Virus record (IMG/VR): IMGVR_UViG_3300035698_014034
Span: 1-22,094 of that record
Length of the DNA: 22,094 bases
Direction: 5' to 3' (one strand)
Origin: a virus
Numbering within the stretch: the stretch's first letter is position 1; the number at the start of each line of letters is the position of its first letter. Below are positions 7,085 to 20,819 of this stretch, one piece after another. The notes under the pieces were generated by a model. The model saw only the letters and a program-made list of their open reading frames with translations. It did not search any database and had not been told where the DNA came from. The translations under genes and the position numbers were made by a program.

Positions 7085-7475
7085 TGCCTTAAAGTGTAGC
7101 AAGGGAAGGTCAGAAACAGTCAGCCACAAGATTGCAAAGTTTTGGGTGTGCAACTTCTGCTGGGAGAGAGGACTAGACTTCGCCACAGAGGTGGTCTTTA
7201 AAGACAACCAGAGAGCAGATGTGGTTGTCAAAGACTGGAACATCGCAATAGAAATACTGGGAACAGAGAAGGCAACAGACTTCATCAAGAAGAGATACCC
7301 AATGCCTGCAGTACCAATAGACGCAATGATGCCAGTAGAGAAAATCTGGGACATGATGCGAGACTTAGAAGACACAAACGGAGAGGGCTCTGACTATTAT
7401 CTTAAAAAACATTTTAATGACCCACAGCTTCTAAAGTCCAGAAAGCTGGTGTCAAGCATGGAGGATTTGAAATGA
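7017..7475 (+). CDS. PD-(D/E)XK nuclease-like protein (152 aa)
   Basis: A strong AGGAGGT site precedes ATG 7017 inside the previous gene. The core SHKIAKFWVCNFCWERG, then FATEVVF, then RADVVVKDWNIAIEILGTEK matches the layout of small PD-(D/E)XK proteins: helix with Glu/Cys region, then E, then R-x-D, then the E-x-x strand. The second catalytic block reads EIL with Lys three further on, rather than E-x-K, as in several divergent archaeal homologues. It may be a DNA-cutting or DNA-binding protein. The CNFC pair could bind metal. Confidence 0.5.
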   Translation: MKIKERMQKRKEATLKIQTGTSNALKCSKGRSETVSHKIAKFWVCNFCWERGLDFATEVVFKDNQRADVVVKDWNIAIEILGTEKATDFIKKRYPMPAVPIDAMMPVEKIWDMMRDLEDTNGEGSDYYLKKHFNDPQLLKSRKLVSSMEDLK

Positions 7476-7849
7476 AAACAATAAAAACTATTATCAGTTT
7501 GGTGCTGTTTTTTATTATATCTGTGGTGGCAGTATCAGCAGAGAAAATCGAATACGAGTATACAATTTGTGGAGGAAGCATGCGACCAACGTACAACAAC
7601 GATGTAGAATGCGGAACTTTTAGAGTTCAAACGATCACAGGAGTAGACGCAAAAATCAATGACACAGTATGCTTTAATCCAATTTGGTCGTTTTTTGAAT
7701 ACAAACACATATACAGATACCAATATGTCTGCCACAGAATCATAGACAAGAACGCAACCCACGTATTAACAAAGGGGGACGCAAACAAGGTCTCGGATTA
7801 CTGGGTAAAAAATAATAATGTAGCATTAATCGTAAAAGGAGAATGGTAG
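7472..7849 (+). CDS. Sec11-type signal peptidase I homologue (125 aa)
   Basis: One N-terminal membrane segment (residues 7-22) is followed by the signature GGSMRPT with the nucleophile Ser36. VCHRII (His88) and LTKGDAN (Asp103, and Asp109 close by) follow, the Ser-His-Asp arrangement of archaeal/eukaryotic Sec11 rather than the Ser-Lys dyad of bacterial LepB. The protease would act on the outer face of the membrane, cleaving exported preproteins. At 125 aa it is a compact version. ATG 7472 follows TGGAGG. In a virus it could process virion or exit proteins. Substrates are unknown. Confidence 0.75.
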   Translation: MKTIKTIISLVLFFIISVVAVSAEKIEYEYTICGGSMRPTYNNDVECGTFRVQTITGVDAKINDTVCFNPIWSFFEYKHIYRYQYVCHRIIDKNATHVLTKGDANKVSDYWVKNNNVALIVKGEW

Positions 7850-9393: not shown

Positions 9394-10782
9394 ATGAAAT
9401 GTGAAAGATGCTATACTTCAATTGAAAAAGAACAAAAGACAAACACAGGATGTGAACTATGTGACAAGTGGACATGGGTAGACATTGCAGAAGTCAAACC
9501 AAACGACAAGAATCCAAGAACAATAACCAGGGGAGAGCTGAACAAGCTAATCAGAAGCATCAAAGAGTTCGGATACAGATTCCCAATACTTGTCAACACC
9601 CACAAAGAAAGAACCATGATGATCATTGCAGGACACCAAAGAGTCAAAGCAATGGAGAAAATAGGAGCAAAACAAATCCCAATATTCACAGTAAGCCTAA
9701 CAAAAGAGAACGAACACTTGCTAAACATAGCAGACAACGAAATCTCAGGAGACTGGGATGAGCAGAAACTATATGATTTACTAAAAGAATTACAGGATGG
9801 TGGAGCAGACCTAACATTGACAGGATTCGATGAGCCAATGATTGATGAGATTATGGCAGCAAACGAAATGAACGAAAAGGAAGGAATGATAGATGTAGCA
9901 CCAGTAGCACCAGACAAACCCAAAACAAAGTACGGTGAGATTTATAAGCTTGGAGATCATAGATTAATGTGCGGAGATTCAACAAGCGAAGAAGACATGA
10001 CAAAGCTAATGGCAGGAAAGACTGCAGACATGAGTTGGACTGACCCACCATACGGAGTAAGCTATAAGGGAACTAACAATCCAAATGGTAGATCATGGGA
10101 ATTATTAAAGAACGATGAACTACGAGGGAATGATTTATACATATTTCTCAAAGGAATTTATACAAACTTATTCAAATTTACAAAAGAAGGAGCAGCATTG
10201 TACAGTGCCTATGCAAGCGTAAATCACAGAATATTCGAACAAACACTAAACGAATCAGGATGGATAGTTAAGCAATTATTAATCTGGGAGAAGGGACATG
10301 TACTAGGACACTCAGACTATCACTGGTGTCACGAACCAATCTTATACTGCAAAAGAGGAGAGAAGAACACAACATGGTATGGAGACAGAACACACAAAAC
10401 CACCATCATGAGTTCTACAATCGAACAGCTCCAGGACTTAACCAAAGAAAAGCTAATTGCCATTATCAGTGGCATAAGGGAAGACTCAGACATCATACAT
10501 TTAAGAAAGGATCCTTCAAACGAATACTTGCACTCAACCCAGAAGCCAGTAGAACTGAGCAAGATAATGATTAAGAACAGCTCTAGACCTAATGGCTTGA
10601 TACTTGAACCATGTGCAGAAAGTGGAAGCACCTTGATGGCATGCGAAACATCCAGCAGGAAATGCTATGCAATGGAACTCGATTCCAAGTATTGTGATGT
10701 AATCCTAACAAGATGGGCATCATTCACAGGCAAGGACCCAATCAGGGAATCAGACGATAAGAAGTGGAGTGAAATCAAATGA
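9394..10782 (+). CDS. ParB-like domain fused to DNA methyltransferase (462 aa)
   Basis: Three parts. Residues 1-25 form a four-Cys zinc knuckle (C3, C6, C20, C23). Residues 28-150 are a ParB/sulfiredoxin domain with KNPR (39-42) and GHQR (80-83). Residues 180-445 are an N6-adenine/N4-cytosine methyltransferase with DPPY (217-220), HSTQKP (380-385) and the SAM-binding end. The motif order DPPY before the SAM motif is the beta-type layout. Its SAM motif is ILEPCAESGST instead of the usual FxGxG type, so SAM binding may be weak or altered. Such ParB-methyltransferases are common in tailed viruses and modify viral DNA. Overlaps the next gene by ATGA. Confidence 0.8.
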   Translation: MKCERCYTSIEKEQKTNTGCELCDKWTWVDIAEVKPNDKNPRTITRGELNKLIRSIKEFGYRFPILVNTHKERTMMIIAGHQRVKAMEKIGAKQIPIFTVSLTKENEHLLNIADNEISGDWDEQKLYDLLKELQDGGADLTLTGFDEPMIDEIMAANEMNEKEGMIDVAPVAPDKPKTKYGEIYKLGDHRLMCGDSTSEEDMTKLMAGKTADMSWTDPPYGVSYKGTNNPNGRSWELLKNDELRGNDLYIFLKGIYTNLFKFTKEGAALYSAYASVNHRIFEQTLNESGWIVKQLLIWEKGHVLGHSDYHWCHEPILYCKRGEKNTTWYGDRTHKTTIMSSTIEQLQDLTKEKLIAIISGIREDSDIIHLRKDPSNEYLHSTQKPVELSKIMIKNSSRPNGLILEPCAESGSTLMACETSSRKCYAMELDSKYCDVILTRWASFTGKDPIRESDDKKWSEIK

Positions 10783-12117: not shown

Positions 12118-12858
12118 TTGATAAAACATTATTTAAAAAATATTGGAAAAGCTGTGTTATTTCCGAAAGCAGGATGCCTACCAAAACCTACACATATTGA
12201 ACCTGGTTTAATTACATTTCATAATAATGACTTCTTACATGAAGCTAAATTTAGTAATGCTTTAAATGCGGCAAGAAAAAGTACAGGTGAAGATTTACCT
12301 GGCGTTTGGAGAACATATACGGCTGCATGGTTTGGAAAATATTGTCAGAGTCTACCAGGCGACTTTGTAGAATTTGGAGTAGACAAGGGCTTTACTTCTT
12401 ATGTTGTAATGCACTACGGGGATTTCAACGATTGTAAAAAAACATATTGGTTAATGGATACTTTTGAGGGATTAGATATTAGTCAAATGAGCAAAAAAGA
12501 AATAGAAATAGTCAAACCAAGTCGTTACAAATATGGTGGCAATTATGAAAATATTAAATCTGTATTTAAAGCATTCAAAAAATGTAAAGCTATAAAGGGA
12601 AGCGTCCCAGGCTCGCTAAACAAAATAACATCAAAACGAATTTGCTTTGCATATATCGACATGAACAACGTGTATCCCGAAATTGAAGCTGCAAAGTTTG
12701 TCTGGGACAGAATGCCAAAAGGTGGAGTAATTCTCTTAGACGACTATGCATTCAGCGAAAAATATATTATGCAGAAAGAGGCATTTGATGTTTTTGCAAA
12801 AGAAAGAAAAACAAGCGTATTAACATTATCAAATGGCCTGGGCCTAATAATGAAATAG
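12118..12858 (+). CDS. TylF/MycF-family SAM methyltransferase (246 aa)
   Basis: TylF-type enzymes are metal-dependent O-methyltransferases that act on sugar hydroxyls. Visible motifs are the SAM loop VEFGVDKG (84-91), DTFEGL (114-119), IDM (Asp181) and DDY (208-210), with Asp181/208/209 placed like the family's metal ligands. The start is TTG 12118; no nearer ATG exists and the frame before is closed. The gene is T-rich and unlike its A-rich neighbours, which suggests recent acquisition from a host. It could methylate glycans or a cell-surface polymer. Substrate unknown. Confidence 0.75.
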   Translation: MIKHYLKNIGKAVLFPKAGCLPKPTHIEPGLITFHNNDFLHEAKFSNALNAARKSTGEDLPGVWRTYTAAWFGKYCQSLPGDFVEFGVDKGFTSYVVMHYGDFNDCKKTYWLMDTFEGLDISQMSKKEIEIVKPSRYKYGGNYENIKSVFKAFKKCKAIKGSVPGSLNKITSKRICFAYIDMNNVYPEIEAAKFVWDRMPKGGVILLDDYAFSEKYIMQKEAFDVFAKERKTSVLTLSNGLGLIMK

Positions 12859-15559: not shown

Positions 15560-15640
15560 GTGAATGATGAAGAAGAAATAGATAGTTACGAAGCATACGC
15601 AGAAGACGAACAAGGAGAAGAAGACGAAGAATGGCAATAG
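15560..15640 (+). CDS. Acidic mini-protein with GTG start (26 aa)
   Basis: GAGGTGA (15547-15553) lies six bases before GTG 15560. The peptide is almost entirely Glu/Asp (NDEEEIDSYEAYAEDEQGEE). It overlaps the TerL start by ten bases, so it could couple translation to TerL. Possibly only a leader peptide. Confidence 0.4.
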   Translation: MNDEEEIDSYEAYAEDEQGEEDEEWQ

Positions 15641-17028
15641 AGTGGACACAATCACCAAAGCAAGTCTTGGCTTATCAGACATTAACAGACAAGAAACATA
15701 CTGAGATATTTTATGGTGGTGGAGCAGGAGGCGGTAAGTCATACCTAGGCTGTGCATGGCTGTTATTATCTTGTATCCAATATAAATCCAGCAGATGGCT
15801 CATGGGCAGAGCAGTGCTGAAAACATTAAAACAAACAACCCTTCTAACCTTTTTCGAGATATGCAGAACATGGGGAATTAAACCCAAGCGAGACTACAAC
15901 TACAATGAGAACTCAGGATGCATCAAGTTCGCAAATGGATCAGAGATATATCTGAAAGACTTGGCACATTATCCAGCAGACCCAGAGTATGACAGTTTAG
16001 GATCCACAGAATATACAGGAGCATTCATCGATGAAGCATCACAAATCAAGAGCAAAGCCAAAAACATAGTCATGTCCAGGATAAGATACAAGCTGCATGG
16101 GTTTGGGATCATACCCATGATACTGATAGCCAGCAACCCATCAAAGAACTTTTTATACAAGGAATTCTACAGACCATGGAAAGAAGGAAAACTTCTACCA
16201 TACCGCCAATTCATACCAAGCTTAGTTGGAGACAATCCATTCATAAGCAAACACTACATCGACAACCTACACAAACTAGATCCAATCAGCAAAGAGAGAC
16301 TGCTGTATGGGAACTTTGACTATGACGATGACCCAGCAAAGTTATATGATTACGATGACATACTGGACTTATTCACCAACACCCCAGAAGACAGAGAAGG
16401 CAAGTATCTGATATGCGATGTAGCACGTAAAGGAAAAGACCTAACAGTCATAGGATACTGGGAAGGGATGCTACTAAGAGGAATATGGGCATACCAATTC
16501 AAAACCCAGAAGACAATATTCAGTGGAGTCAAAACAATTTATGATTATCCAATAGCAGCAACAATAAAGATATTGAGAAACCTTCAAGAGAAGCTACATG
16601 TCAAGATGAGCCACACCCTAATCGATGAGGATGGAGTTGGTGGAGGAGTTGTTGATGGTCTCAATGGCAGCAGGGGATTCGTAAACAACAGTGCAGCAAT
16701 GCAGACAGGACAACAGAAAGCAAACTATTCAAACCTAAAGAGTCAATGCCATTTCTTATTGGCAGATTACACCAAGCGAGGTGACATAGGAATCAGAACA
16801 TCGAACCAAGACTTCCAGGAGGCAATCATTGAAGAACTAGAACAAATCAAACAAAAGGATATAGACAAAGATGGAAAGCTTGCGATCATCAGCAAGGACA
16901 TAATCAAAGACAACATAGGGAGAAGTTCAGACTTTTCAGACATGCTCATGATGCGTATGCTATATCAGATAGCACCAAGAAGAGTGGCTCTGTTGAGGGA
17001 CCCAGAGAACGTAACAGGATTAATGTAA
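15631..17028 (+). CDS. terL: Terminase large subunit (465 aa)
   Basis: The packaging motor that translocates viral DNA into procapsids and cuts it. The ATPase part shows Walker A GGGAGGGKS (29-37), Walker B GAFIDEA with Asp134/Glu135, and the coupling motif IASNPS near 166-171. The nuclease part (RNase H-like) has Asp263 in YLICDVARKGKD, the acidic cluster IDEDGVGGG (332-334) and Asp437 in SDFSDML. All three nuclease acids are present, so it should be active. Length is typical. The start lies in the end of the acidic mini-protein gene. Followed directly by a ribbon-helix-helix gene. Confidence 0.9.
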   Translation: MAIEWTQSPKQVLAYQTLTDKKHTEIFYGGGAGGGKSYLGCAWLLLSCIQYKSSRWLMGRAVLKTLKQTTLLTFFEICRTWGIKPKRDYNYNENSGCIKFANGSEIYLKDLAHYPADPEYDSLGSTEYTGAFIDEASQIKSKAKNIVMSRIRYKLHGFGIIPMILIASNPSKNFLYKEFYRPWKEGKLLPYRQFIPSLVGDNPFISKHYIDNLHKLDPISKERLLYGNFDYDDDPAKLYDYDDILDLFTNTPEDREGKYLICDVARKGKDLTVIGYWEGMLLRGIWAYQFKTQKTIFSGVKTIYDYPIAATIKILRNLQEKLHVKMSHTLIDEDGVGGGVVDGLNGSRGFVNNSAAMQTGQQKANYSNLKSQCHFLLADYTKRGDIGIRTSNQDFQEAIIEELEQIKQKDIDKDGKLAIISKDIIKDNIGRSSDFSDMLMMRMLYQIAPRRVALLRDPENVTGLM

Positions 17029-17029
17029 A

Positions 17030-17191
17030 ATGATAGAACTACATTTAACAAAAACAACAGTAAGCGTGGGCAGAAGCACAAAGGCAGAACTAGATGATCA
17101 TAAAACAAAATGGGACTCTTATGATGACGTTATCAGGAAACTAATAAGAGAGAACCGAGACATGACAAAACAATTAAAACAGAACATTTAA
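17030..17191 (+). CDS. Ribbon-helix-helix-like protein (53 aa)
   Basis: The pattern KTTVSVGRSTKAELDDHK then SYDDVIRKLIREN is that of CopG/antitoxin-like ribbon-helix-helix proteins: a short strand (TTVSV) for DNA contact and two helices. Such proteins bind operators as dimers. It starts one base after the TerL stop. Its own stop codon lies inside the TATA-like box of the portal promoter, so it could regulate its own operon. No partner toxin is seen next to it. Confidence 0.55.
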   Translation: MIELHLTKTTVSVGRSTKAELDDHKTKWDSYDDVIRKLIRENRDMTKQLKQNI

Positions 17192-17196
17192 ATATA
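17183..17196 (+). promoter_or_regulatory. TATA-type promoter candidate for the structural operon
   Basis: aacatttaaatata at 17183-17196 repeats the 13-mer found before Alba (8552-8564). It overlaps the last bases of the ribbon-helix-helix gene. The portal ATG is at 17230 after AGGAGG (17217-17222), so a start about 25 nt below the box would fall near the ribosome site. That would give a very short leader. A second TATA-like tract, atattata, is at 17207-17214. Confidence 0.5.
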
Positions 17197-17229
17197 TCAC
17201 AACCAAATATTATACAGGAGGCGCTACCA

Positions 17230-19731
17230 ATGAGAATACCATTCACAAAATATAACCTATCTTTTAACAAATCCAATTCTGATACTGTAGAAATAGAAAA
17301 GAGAGTCCTAGATGAATTTATAGGAACGGATTCAAGATTTAAAGGGGATAGACCAAAACTAAATCCAAGCGAATCAATGGGCGATGACCAGATTCTGATG
17401 CCATACATTCCAATACCAATGGACATCATATATGACACAGCAAGATACAGCGATGTATTGCGAACCATCCACCAGAACATACGAAAAGAAATATTCCGAA
17501 AAGGATACGAGATCGTGGAACTCTTTGCAGTTAAATGTGAAGACTGCGATAAGGAGTTCGAGCAACCAGTGGACGAATGTGACGAATGCGGTAGCACCAA
17601 TTTGAGAGAGCCAGACATCAAACAAAAGAAAGTCCTGCAGACATTCTGTAAGGATGTTAACGATAACGGTCAAGACTTGGTATTGGTCTCAGAGAACTTA
17701 AATGACGATTTAGAAACAATCGACAACTCATACTTATTGATGGTTAAAGATTATTATTGGAGCAACGGAGGAGAACTTATAGGGGAAGTCCCAGTAGAAC
17801 TAATCCGAGCAGATCCAAGATTTATGTTTATCATGGCAGATAAGATGGGAAGACCAGCCAGGAACCAAGGAGGCGATCAGCTTTCTGTATGCTTTGAACA
17901 CAGAGAAACGCTTCTAGTGAATGTAACAGAATGTCCAACATGTGGCAAGGAAACATTCCCTGCAAACTTTAGATCGCAAAGCCCAGAGGGACAATATCTC
18001 TATTACAACAGGAACGAGGTATGCCACAGAGCCAAATACAACCCAAGCTTGACATACGGATTCTCAGTCATATACGCAGTCTGGATGAAGGTAGTGACAT
18101 TGATGAACATGGATCAATACATGAAGGATTACTACGCAAAGCAAAGACCACCAAGAGGACTGCTATTCGTAAACACTCCAAACATGGACAGCCTAACCAA
18201 AGCATGGAACTGGATGCTTGATGAATTCAAAAAGAACCCACACCAAATACCACCGATCGCAATCGAACAAACTTCTGGCTCCAAAGGGAACCTAGTCAAT
18301 TTTATAGACATGATGAAAGGACTGGACGAGATGCAGTACATCGAATGTCGAAACGAAATGCGAAGACAGATAGGGGCAGTGTACGGAGTAATGCCATTAT
18401 TCCAGGGAGACATATCTACAAGCGGAGGACTCAACAACGAAGGACTTCAAATCACAGTAACCAACAGAGCCATCGTAGACGGACAGGGAGTATTCAATGA
18501 CGGATTCTATCCATGGGTATGCAAACAGATGCAAGTCACAGATTACAAGATATGGTTACCACCAAATGAAGAAGAAGACTTAATCCACAATGAAGAGCTA
18601 TTCAGCAAAAAGATAGACAACGCATCCAAGATGCAGGGAATGGGCTTCGATGTAATTTTAAATGAAGAAGGAGACTTCGAGTTCGACCCACTGGATGAAC
18701 CAGTAGAGAAACCAGACCCAATGGGAGGAATGATGGGTGGAGCACCAGGCGAAGAAGAAGTTCAACCAGATGCTGAAGAACCAGAAGCCGAACCAACACC
18801 AGATGGAACCCCTGACATGGGCGCACCAGAAGTGGCATCAATGCAAGAGATGGGTGGAGAGCCACCAGTGGCAAGCATGAGCAAATCATTAAAAAAAGGT
18901 AAGGTCTATCTAAGCCCAGGCGAACAAGCACCACAAGGTGCAAACGTCCAGATGGGACCTCATGGGGGCAAATTTTATGAAGAGAATACAAACAACGTAT
19001 CACAAAAGCCAAACATTACACCTTATAATCAAAACAAATTAAATAGCATAAACCAGGCATTGAACCAAAGCCCAGAACCAGACAAAAAAGCAAAACTAGA
19101 AGAAGCCAAGAAGTTGATAGAAGCTGGAAAAAGCACAAGGTTGAACATGAATTCTTTTAAATCACAACAGACAACCCAAGCACCGAAAGAAGAAAAGACA
19201 CAAATAAGTTCTACAAGTAAAAACATACTAAAGCCTTTAGTAGAAGGATGGGATGCAACAAAGGACAACGAAATGCTATCATTAAGAGCAGCAACAAAAG
19301 AGATATTTCATTCACCATACCTAGAAGCACACAATGACAAAACATACAAAGTAGATCCAAAAGTCGTAGATGCAGTAAAAGAATTATACGAAGTAACGCA
19401 ACCAAAGCTCAAAAAAGAATATGGAGAAACGGTGACGTTATATAGAGGAATGAGTGAATACATGGTACAAAGGCACAAAATGGAATTAGGGAATGATAAA
19501 GATATACCTATGTCAGGATTAGAAAGCTGGAGCATCGATAAACAACAGGCTCAAGACTTTGGAACTGACGGCATCATCGTAGAAGCACAGATTCCAACAA
19601 ACAGGGTTCTATTTACTGGAGACACCGATCCAACAAATTCATTGACTGTGCCAGAAGAAAAAGAGTTCTTTGTTATTGGACACAAGCTAAAAGGAACAAT
19701 CACACCAGGACCCAAAGATGAATTCAAATGA
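17230..19731 (+). CDS. Portal protein fused to ADP-ribosyltransferase domain (833 aa)
   Basis: The portal is the dodecameric ring at the capsid vertex where TerL docks. Residues about 20-480 are portal-like (YSDVLRTIHQNIRKEIFRKG, GFSVIYAVWMKV, QIGAVYGVMPLFQGDIST). Two metal-binding inserts are visible: C103, C106, C117, C120 and C221, H224, C235, C238. A Pro/Glu/Met-rich linker (490-555) leads to a YLSPGEQAPQGANVQMGPHG segment. Residues about 665-833 form an ADP-ribosyltransferase with Arg739 (LYRG), Ser766 in ESWS and the Glu motif E810-x-E812 (EEKEFFV), the R-S-E type. ARTs transfer ADP-ribose from NAD to proteins. Such a domain on a portal is unusual and may modify targets at assembly or injection. 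It overlaps the MuF gene by ATGA. Confidence 0.85.
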   Translation: MRIPFTKYNLSFNKSNSDTVEIEKRVLDEFIGTDSRFKGDRPKLNPSESMGDDQILMPYIPIPMDIIYDTARYSDVLRTIHQNIRKEIFRKGYEIVELFAVKCEDCDKEFEQPVDECDECGSTNLREPDIKQKKVLQTFCKDVNDNGQDLVLVSENLNDDLETIDNSYLLMVKDYYWSNGGELIGEVPVELIRADPRFMFIMADKMGRPARNQGGDQLSVCFEHRETLLVNVTECPTCGKETFPANFRSQSPEGQYLYYNRNEVCHRAKYNPSLTYGFSVIYAVWMKVVTLMNMDQYMKDYYAKQRPPRGLLFVNTPNMDSLTKAWNWMLDEFKKNPHQIPPIAIEQTSGSKGNLVNFIDMMKGLDEMQYIECRNEMRRQIGAVYGVMPLFQGDISTSGGLNNEGLQITVTNRAIVDGQGVFNDGFYPWVCKQMQVTDYKIWLPPNEEEDLIHNEELFSKKIDNASKMQGMGFDVILNEEGDFEFDPLDEPVEKPDPMGGMMGGAPGEEEVQPDAEEPEAEPTPDGTPDMGAPEVASMQEMGGEPPVASMSKSLKKGKVYLSPGEQAPQGANVQMGPHGGKFYEENTNNVSQKPNITPYNQNKLNSINQALNQSPEPDKKAKLEEAKKLIEAGKSTRLNMNSFKSQQTTQAPKEEKTQISSTSKNILKPLVEGWDATKDNEMLSLRAATKEIFHSPYLEAHNDKTYKVDPKVVDAVKELYEVTQPKLKKEYGETVTLYRGMSEYMVQRHKMELGNDKDIPMSGLESWSIDKQQAQDFGTDGIIVEAQIPTNRVLFTGDTDPTNSLTVPEEKEFFVIGHKLKGTITPGPKDEFK

Positions 19732-20819
19732 TAAAACAACTTATCCTCGAAAACATTTATCCCCAAGAAGGGAAGGAGACATTAATCACTCCTGAGATTA
19801 TTGGAAGGATAGAAAAGATAATCGTCAAATACGCAGAGCCATCAGCAGAAGAAGCAACACTAGAGATTGACACAGAATACGAAGAGAACCTTGTAGCCAT
19901 AACAGGAAGCAAGGATGGAGTCTGGTATCCAAGAAACTGGAACGTGTCAACCCAAATGTACCAGGGAATCAATGTTGCAAGCGAAGGGCAAAGCACAATG
20001 AACGCAGAGAGATGGGTAAGTTCAGGACCATTGACAATCAAATACATATCGAGTCAACTAACAGACTTCATCAAGAAGCTAATTATTATTTATGAGGGGG
20101 AAGACATTCCAGAAGAAATGGAAGAAGGAGAGATAGAGCCAGAAGAAGAACCGATCGAGAAATCAATCAAGAAGGATGCAGGCATGGTCTCAACCGCCAC
20201 CGCAGGATGTAGCAATCCAACACACACACAAAAGAAAAGGCAATATTACCTCGAAAAGATGCACGAACAAGTAGTATCGGAGTTCAACTCAGACATGAAA
20301 AAAGAGGTAGCAAAGAAGCCAATGGACGCAAAGAGCCTAAGAGAATTCATTGAACGATCAATGTTTAACAGGAAGTTCGATGGAATGAGCAAAAGCATCA
20401 GCGAACAAATCAAAGATTACATACTCAGAGCAACAGTAAAGAAATACGATGAGCCAAGAGTCACCAAGTACATCAAGCGTAAAGCTGGCAAAGAAAACTA
20501 CAAAGGACAATTTAACAACATATTCAGAACCGAGAACCAGGCAATGAAGAACGGAGTACGAGAATGGAGCTATTCACAAACAGACCCAGAAGGGGATAAG
20601 AAATACAAATGGATAGGACCCAAGGACCATCGAACAACCAATATCTGCAAAAGGATAACCAAACGAACAGCCAATGGATTCACCATGTCAGAACTAAAAG
20701 ACGTGATTCATCAAGAAGTAGAGAGAGCCAAACAAGAAGAAGAACTTCCTGAAAACTTCGAAGAAAGAGACTGGACACCCCACTTCCGATGCAGGCACAC
20801 ATTTGTGAGGATTATGTAA
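19728..20819 (+). CDS. MuF/SPP1 gp7-like head morphogenesis protein (363 aa)
   Basis: The C-terminal 70 residues match the MuF ending: WIGPKDHRTTNICKRITKRT (Asp300, Arg302, Cys307), a helix, then WTPHFRCRHTFV with Cys355. MuF proteins sit on the portal or inside the head and are ejected or help assembly. The N-terminal part has a distinct beta/helix domain (VWYPRNWNVSTQMYQGINV) and an acidic linker (145-150). It follows the portal with an ATGA overlap, the usual order. N-terminal function unknown. Confidence 0.75.
   Translation: MIKQLILENIYPQEGKETLITPEIIGRIEKIIVKYAEPSAEEATLEIDTEYEENLVAITGSKDGVWYPRNWNVSTQMYQGINVASEGQSTMNAERWVSSGPLTIKYISSQLTDFIKKLIIIYEGEDIPEEMEEGEIEPEEEPIEKSIKKDAGMVSTATAGCSNPTHTQKKRQYYLEKMHEQVVSEFNSDMKKEVAKKPMDAKSLREFIERSMFNRKFDGMSKSISEQIKDYILRATVKKYDEPRVTKYIKRKAGKENYKGQFNNIFRTENQAMKNGVREWSYSQTDPEGDKKYKWIGPKDHRTTNICKRITKRTANGFTMSELKDVIHQEVERAKQEEELPENFEERDWTPHFRCRHTFVRIM

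Follow-up and report, generated by a model that had tools for sequence, protein, structure and literature searches.

The closest described systems are the MuF polymorphic toxins of temperate phages, in which a head-morphogenesis protein carries a variable C-terminal enzyme (ADP-ribosyltransferase (ART), metallopeptidase or RelA-type) and the gene adjoins those of the portal and terminase (PMC5576092). Fusions of effectors, ARTs included, to portal or head proteins have also been published by Aravind and colleagues (PMC9503650; PMC5512222). We describe here a gene related to these systems, at positions 17230-19731 of the virus record IMGVR_UViG_3300035698_014034 (22,094 nucleotides; this whole stretch is called the window). 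It encodes a portal protein that ends in a predicted ART and carries a short conserved peptide, the tag, between the two. As such fusions are already on record, the system is a variant of a known theme and not the first of its kind. It differs from the MuF polymorphic toxins in that the carrier is the portal itself, followed by a separate short MuF gene, and in that the tag of ~30 residues marks the junction. Moreover, the MuF toxin survey deals with bacterial phages and prophages (PMC5576092) whereas the relatives found here are mostly archaeal-virus-like. The accessible parts of the Aravind surveys (PMC9503650; PMC5512222) do not mention a DRAT-type ART on a portal, module swaps between close pairs or a shared junction peptide. 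The tag as a fixed junction behind which portals exchange their enzymes appears to be new, no description having been found in the literature passages and searches covered.

The gene is a single uninterrupted 833-codon open reading frame (ORF), with a Shine-Dalgarno (SD)-like GGAGG 8 nucleotides 5' of its ATG. Residues 78-551 match the portal family phrog_18178 (E 4e-43), in agreement with HK97-type portals, while the score against Pfam Phage_portal is below threshold (24.7 for a cut-off of 39.1). Residues 717-819 match Pfam DRAT (35 bits, 39 bits for the domain alone, curated cut-off 25). R739, ESWS and E810-x-E812 are conserved among homologues that are just 19-26% identical and come from large proteins of halovirus-like contigs. 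A model obtained with AlphaFold from a 4-sequence alignment has a mean predicted local distance difference test (pLDDT) score of 64.5, with values of 74-87 in the catalytic core; the single-sequence model (pLDDT 38) was uninformative. The leading Foldseek matches of the 4-sequence model in the PDB are all ADP-ribosyltransferases (C3bot, E 1.8e-3 and prob 1.00; Certhrax; CDTa; iota-type toxins) and the named viral matches on top are ARTs or MuF/head proteins. Sequence searches of the PDB with phmmer and profiles returned chance matches only (e.g. ferritin, hydrogenase) and a tblastn search of phages with only the ART as query gave no match. The conserved motif together with the structural matches shows that the ART match exceeds a chance motif. 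The R, S/T and E-x-E motifs follow each other in order on the predicted fold, as in the R-S-E clade. At the level of sequence and structural model, the C-terminal domain is confirmed as an ART, predicted to be an R-S-E (E-x-E) mono-ADP-ribosyltransferase. The initial annotation, made from the DNA letters, had claimed a portal-ART fusion with these three motifs; their positions proved exact on a coordinate check, and the PHROG, DRAT and Foldseek matches all fall on one intact ORF. Its view of such a fusion as unusual has to be tempered, the fusion being real but of a kind already reported (PMC9503650).

The DRAT match covers only model positions ~146-251 of 256, i.e. the catalytic half, and the N-terminal half is unmatched. 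Nitrogenase regulation of the DraT (dinitrogenase reductase ADP-ribosyltransferase) type was rejected because this match is partial and a DraG partner is absent from the record. As a separate observation, a 100-kb halovirus-like contig (L071, G004:50414-72006; L numbers denote contig stretches) holds several DRAT-like ART domains inside very large proteins.

The closest relative of the window, L007, shows the same layout, and its portal gene is identical in three metagenome assemblies (L007, L008, L009). Its portal (781 residues) also ends in an ART, which belongs to another family (PF03496, 48.5 bits, cut-off 23.4). Identity between the window and L007 is 84% for the large terminase subunit (TerL), ~80% for the portal core and 72% for MuF. 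Their DNA is homologous from 17176 to 18914 (78%) and from 18916 to 18983 (68 bases, 76%), then no longer until 19726, at the MuF gene start. The tag, KKGKVYLSPGEQAPQGANVQMGPHGGKFYEE in the window, forms the final homologous segment ahead of the exchanged part. As judged from this alignment, the ART block alone is swapped. A second pair behaves similarly: the portal cores of L082 and L096 are 86% identical but the proteins are unrelated beyond the tag. L096 is organised as portal-tag-ART (PF03496, 46.7 bits; PF01129, 25.3 bits) and L082 as portal-tag-second tag-helix-turn-helix/coiled-coil, the latter part being a separate gene in L096. Other enzymes occupy this place in L061 (portal-tag-RelA/SpoT, 53 bits, cut-off 27) and in L052 (portal-tag-zincin-like with HEIGH, Pfam matches under cut-off). 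Two relatives, L058 and L010 (portal identity 64%, against 80% for the L007 core), have no ART: the former portal ends at residue 520 and the latter at residue 598 with a zinc-ribbon-like tail. In the portal tree, window+L007 and L096+L082 form close pairs with different modules and the enzyme types lie on scattered branches, several deep nodes being poorly supported. A conserved carrier whose C-terminal module is exchanged at a fixed junction between close relatives corresponds to the organisation of polymorphic toxins.

These comparisons bear on whether the fusion is real. Two genes joined by a sequencing or assembly error would recall HCTV-5, where portal and ART are separate genes, but this is barely conceivable: the L007 layout was assembled in three metagenomes and recurs in L096, L061 and L052, and the junction DNA is 76-78% identical between the window and L007. 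A fusion artefact was rejected because of these independent assemblies and the four related architectures. The initial annotation had accepted that a separate gene in close relatives would point to such an artefact; the nearest relatives are instead also fused, with another ART family, and the separate gene belongs to the distant HCTV-5. The additional portal-ART fusions that it proposed to look for were found in L007 and L096, both of the PF03496 type. The ART could also be a decaying or inactive passenger gained by recombination, as the module comes and goes among close relatives and no ADP-ribosylhydrolase partner (ADP_ribosyl_GH/DraG) was found in the 22-kb record, itself a fragment. We regard this as very unlikely since no catalytic motif position is lost in the window or in its divergent homologues, and since different ARTs fill the same slot independently, the R / STS / E-x-E motifs of L007 being intact as well. 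Concerning immunity, the gene next to the ART is MuF and not an ADP-ribosylhydrolase; other immunity types are conceivable.

The tag (KVYLSPGEQAPQGANVQMGPHGGKFYEE) is the point where homology between the window and L007 stops, to resume at the next gene. Fourteen aligned tags share an invariant K, P, four G and an aromatic Y. The initial annotation recognised a flexible linker between portal and ART, and linkers are indeed seen, but it missed both the conserved tag at residues 555-586 and the module swapping. The tag profile matches the portals of the window and L007 as well as HCTV-5 gp109, a free ART that bears the tag N-terminally. HVTV-1 gp113 and HCTV-1 gp106, both zincin-like, contain two tags each. 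Further carriers are zeta-toxin proteins (HCTV-5, HVTV-1, HCTV-1), a MuF protein (L064) and, in L047-L050, prohead proteases or the gene that follows them. The C-terminal ART of HVTV-1 gp115, a tagged zeta-toxin protein, is that of HCTV-5 gp109 (phmmer E 5e-107), which indicates that cassettes move between tagged carriers. These two ARTs share with the window the tag, a head-gene cluster location and homologous portals. However gp109 is a separate gene, the gp115 ART is fused to a zeta-toxin protein, and both are of the PF03496 type whereas that of the window is of the DRAT type. In a paper on archaeal tailed viruses, the HVTV-1/HCTV-5 ART is listed solely among metabolic genes (PMC8651126).

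A search of viral contigs with a tag DNA pattern found 47 stretches, L096 among them. When the complete portal or just the ART served as a single-protein query against viral contigs, no relatives were retrieved. Among the 45 tagged proteins scanned, PAP2 was identified in 7, DRAT and Nudix in 5 each, PF03496 in 2, and zeta toxin, RelA/SpoT and HNH in one each. L116 is organised as portal-MuF-tag with a nuclease-like tail (a label unconfirmed by Pfam). In L104 and L074 the gene directly 3' of the portal overlaps the portal end (L104:4593-7322, L074:3904-7227) and joins Nudix, a PAP2 phosphatase, the tag and an ART in a single product; L074 carries a second ART, ART-PolyVal, just under cut-off. 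In L061 the gene after the RelA/SpoT portal (L061:9395-11998) combines a tag, an S-adenosylmethionine lyase (PF23780, 40 bits, cut-off 28) and a C-terminal MuF-like domain, and its product is possibly a head-borne anti-restriction protein. In L007 a KKGKV motif is doubled directly before the tag (residues 547-580, IKKGKVSVRKPLKKGKVYL), as if a partial tag duplication had been left over from cassette exchange. A wider role of the tag is proposed tentatively: it may serve as a capsid-interior docking or targeting element across a broad group of tailed viruses, loading ARTs, RelA/SpoT, zincins, zeta toxins and Nudix/PAP2 proteins, with portals as one of several carriers, and its similarity may also drive cassette recombination.

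Free tagged proteins raise the question of whether the ART is made separately, through translation that starts internally around residue 547-550 or through proteolysis, the long ORF being mainly a genomic arrangement. Met550 lines up with the start of free tag proteins (L048, MPKSATIEKGKTYL), GTG547 has a GGAG at 8 nucleotides, and in HCTV-5 this slot is occupied by a free-standing tag-ART gene. However Met550 lacks a well-placed SD, GTG547 is GTT in L007, and the reading frame of the linker is kept in the window, L007, L096 and L061, making separate production quite unlikely. A free ART from an internal start was rejected since no conserved SD was found.

We consider it fairly probable, from the sequence comparisons, that effectors housed in the capsid interior dock at the portal C-terminus and can be exchanged there, in an arrangement like that of the MuF polymorphic toxins, and that they act early on the host. 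Each portal subunit would bear at its capsid-facing C-terminus an ART behind a flexible linker and the tag, the segment behind the tag being an exchangeable cassette that holds a different ART or another module in close relatives. Portals are dodecamers, and up to 12 enzyme copies would be built into the ring and lie inside the filled head. At infection, the ARTs or a released fragment would transfer ADP-ribose from NAD+ onto a host target. The C-terminus of the portal forms a capsid-facing crown in known tailed phages (PMC8703570), which would place the enzymes inside the head and not on the outer packaging face. The ring of enzymes imagined in the initial annotation is consistent with a dodecamer, but its location would shift accordingly to the head interior (PMC8703570). 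The ART Alt of T4 travels in the phage head and is injected along with the DNA (PMC5512222). Alt resembles the present system only in the way it works, as a virion-packaged ART with a short head-targeting peptide; it is not fused to the portal.

Several points weigh against this proposal. The portal ring normally remains in the virion, so that covalently attached enzymes need cleavage or another exit. Release is the weakest step because a cleavage site is not demonstrated, the terminal Glu of the tag not being invariant among the 14 aligned tags. For the same reason we did not adopt the reading of the tag as a plain cleavage site of the prohead protease with a Glu at its end. The confidence of the ART structure model is only moderate, a single assembly documents the fusion of the window itself, and the proximity of tagged ORFs to head genes (42 of 51 lie in a retrieved stretch that also contains an ORF for a portal, MuF or prohead protease) is a raw count without a random-contig background. 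The covalent attachment to a ring that stays behind would also suit an ART that is active at the assembly stage in the producing cell, or on virion or packaging proteins, without ever reaching the next host; such an enzyme could modify late host proteins or shield the machinery of packaging. Consistent with this, such ARTs possibly counter portal- or terminase-directed immunity, a possibility raised in PMC9503650. Such an assembly-stage role is nevertheless unlikely: RelA/SpoT, zincins, zeta toxins and Nudix/PAP2 in tag-linked proteins make up a set typical of effectors, which virion maintenance hardly explains. If the docking proposal is true, portals carry exchangeable virion-borne effectors as MuF proteins do, and a short motif allows a systematic search for such cargo; this extends to archaeal viruses, for which little is known of injected effectors. 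The idea can already be tested on HCTV-5 and HVTV-1, two cultivable haloviruses in which ART, zincin and zeta-toxin proteins bear the tag.

The portal gene of the window sits between TerL and MuF (Table 1). In tblastn searches its matches were restricted to portals of archaeal viruses (25-28% identity), namely the haloarchaeal viruses HCTV-5, HVTV-1 and HCTV-1, a Methanomassiliicoccales virus and a Methanofastidiosa virus, and the four zinc-ribbon cysteines are kept across the archaeal-virus portals compared. The MuF protein is homologous to the gpF-like proteins of HCTV-1/HCTV-5. Its gene start overlaps the portal stop (ATGA); as it is separate from the portal and Pfam detected no toxin domain in it, it does not qualify as a MuF polymorphic toxin. 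TerL is closest to that of Cellulophaga/Flavobacterium (Bacteroidota) phages (~48% identity). The packaging module is therefore mosaic, with a Bacteroidota-phage-like TerL (15631-17028) and an archaeal-virus-like portal and MuF (17230-20819). The known-host relatives of portal and MuF are archaeal viruses, which suggests that the host is perhaps archaeal, but the closeness of TerL to Bacteroidota phages speaks for caution.

Table 1. Coordinates of the portal fusion gene, its parts and its neighbours in the window
Feature	Position	Strand	Basis
Portal-tag-ADP-ribosyltransferase fusion gene, 833 aa	17230..19731	+	ORF call, Pfam, PHROG match
Portal core, residues ~56-500	17395..18729	+	phrog_18178; tblastn to HCTV-5, HVTV-1, vir335 portals
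Zinc-ribbon cysteines C103/C106/C117/C120 within portal	17536..17589	+	Alignment
Acidic Pro/Gly/Met-rich flexible linker, residues ~491-554	18700..18891	+	Sequence; low conservation versus L007
Conserved tag KKGKVYLSPGEQAPQGANVQMGPHGGKFYEEN, residues 555-586	18892..18987	+	Tag-profile matches
Low-complexity linker, residues 587-674	18988..19251	+	L007 homology absent from here to 19726
Predicted ADP-ribosyltransferase domain, residues ~675-833 (Pfam DRAT 717-819)	19252..19728	+	Pfam, AlphaFold, Foldseek, alignment
Catalytic Arg739 (LYRG)	19444..19446	+	Alignment with homologues
ESWS, S/T motif, E765-S766-W767-S768	19522..19533	+	Alignment with homologues
E810-K811-E812, E-x-E motif	19657..19665	+	Alignment with homologues
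MuF-like head protein gene	19728..20819	+	Weak Pfam MuF; HCTV-1/HCTV-5 gpF-like homologues
Terminase large subunit, upstream neighbour	15631..17028	+	Pfam Terminase_3, 49 bits

Three other genes of the window deserve mention. A small secreted-looking protein (7472-7849) has no Pfam match and includes a GGSMRPT stretch that resembles the signal-peptidase active-site motif. A ParB-N domain is fused to an N6/N4 DNA methylase (9394-10782). Finally, a TylF/macrocin O-methyltransferase-like gene (12118-12858; 39.6 bits, cut-off 23) is possibly involved in glycan modification.
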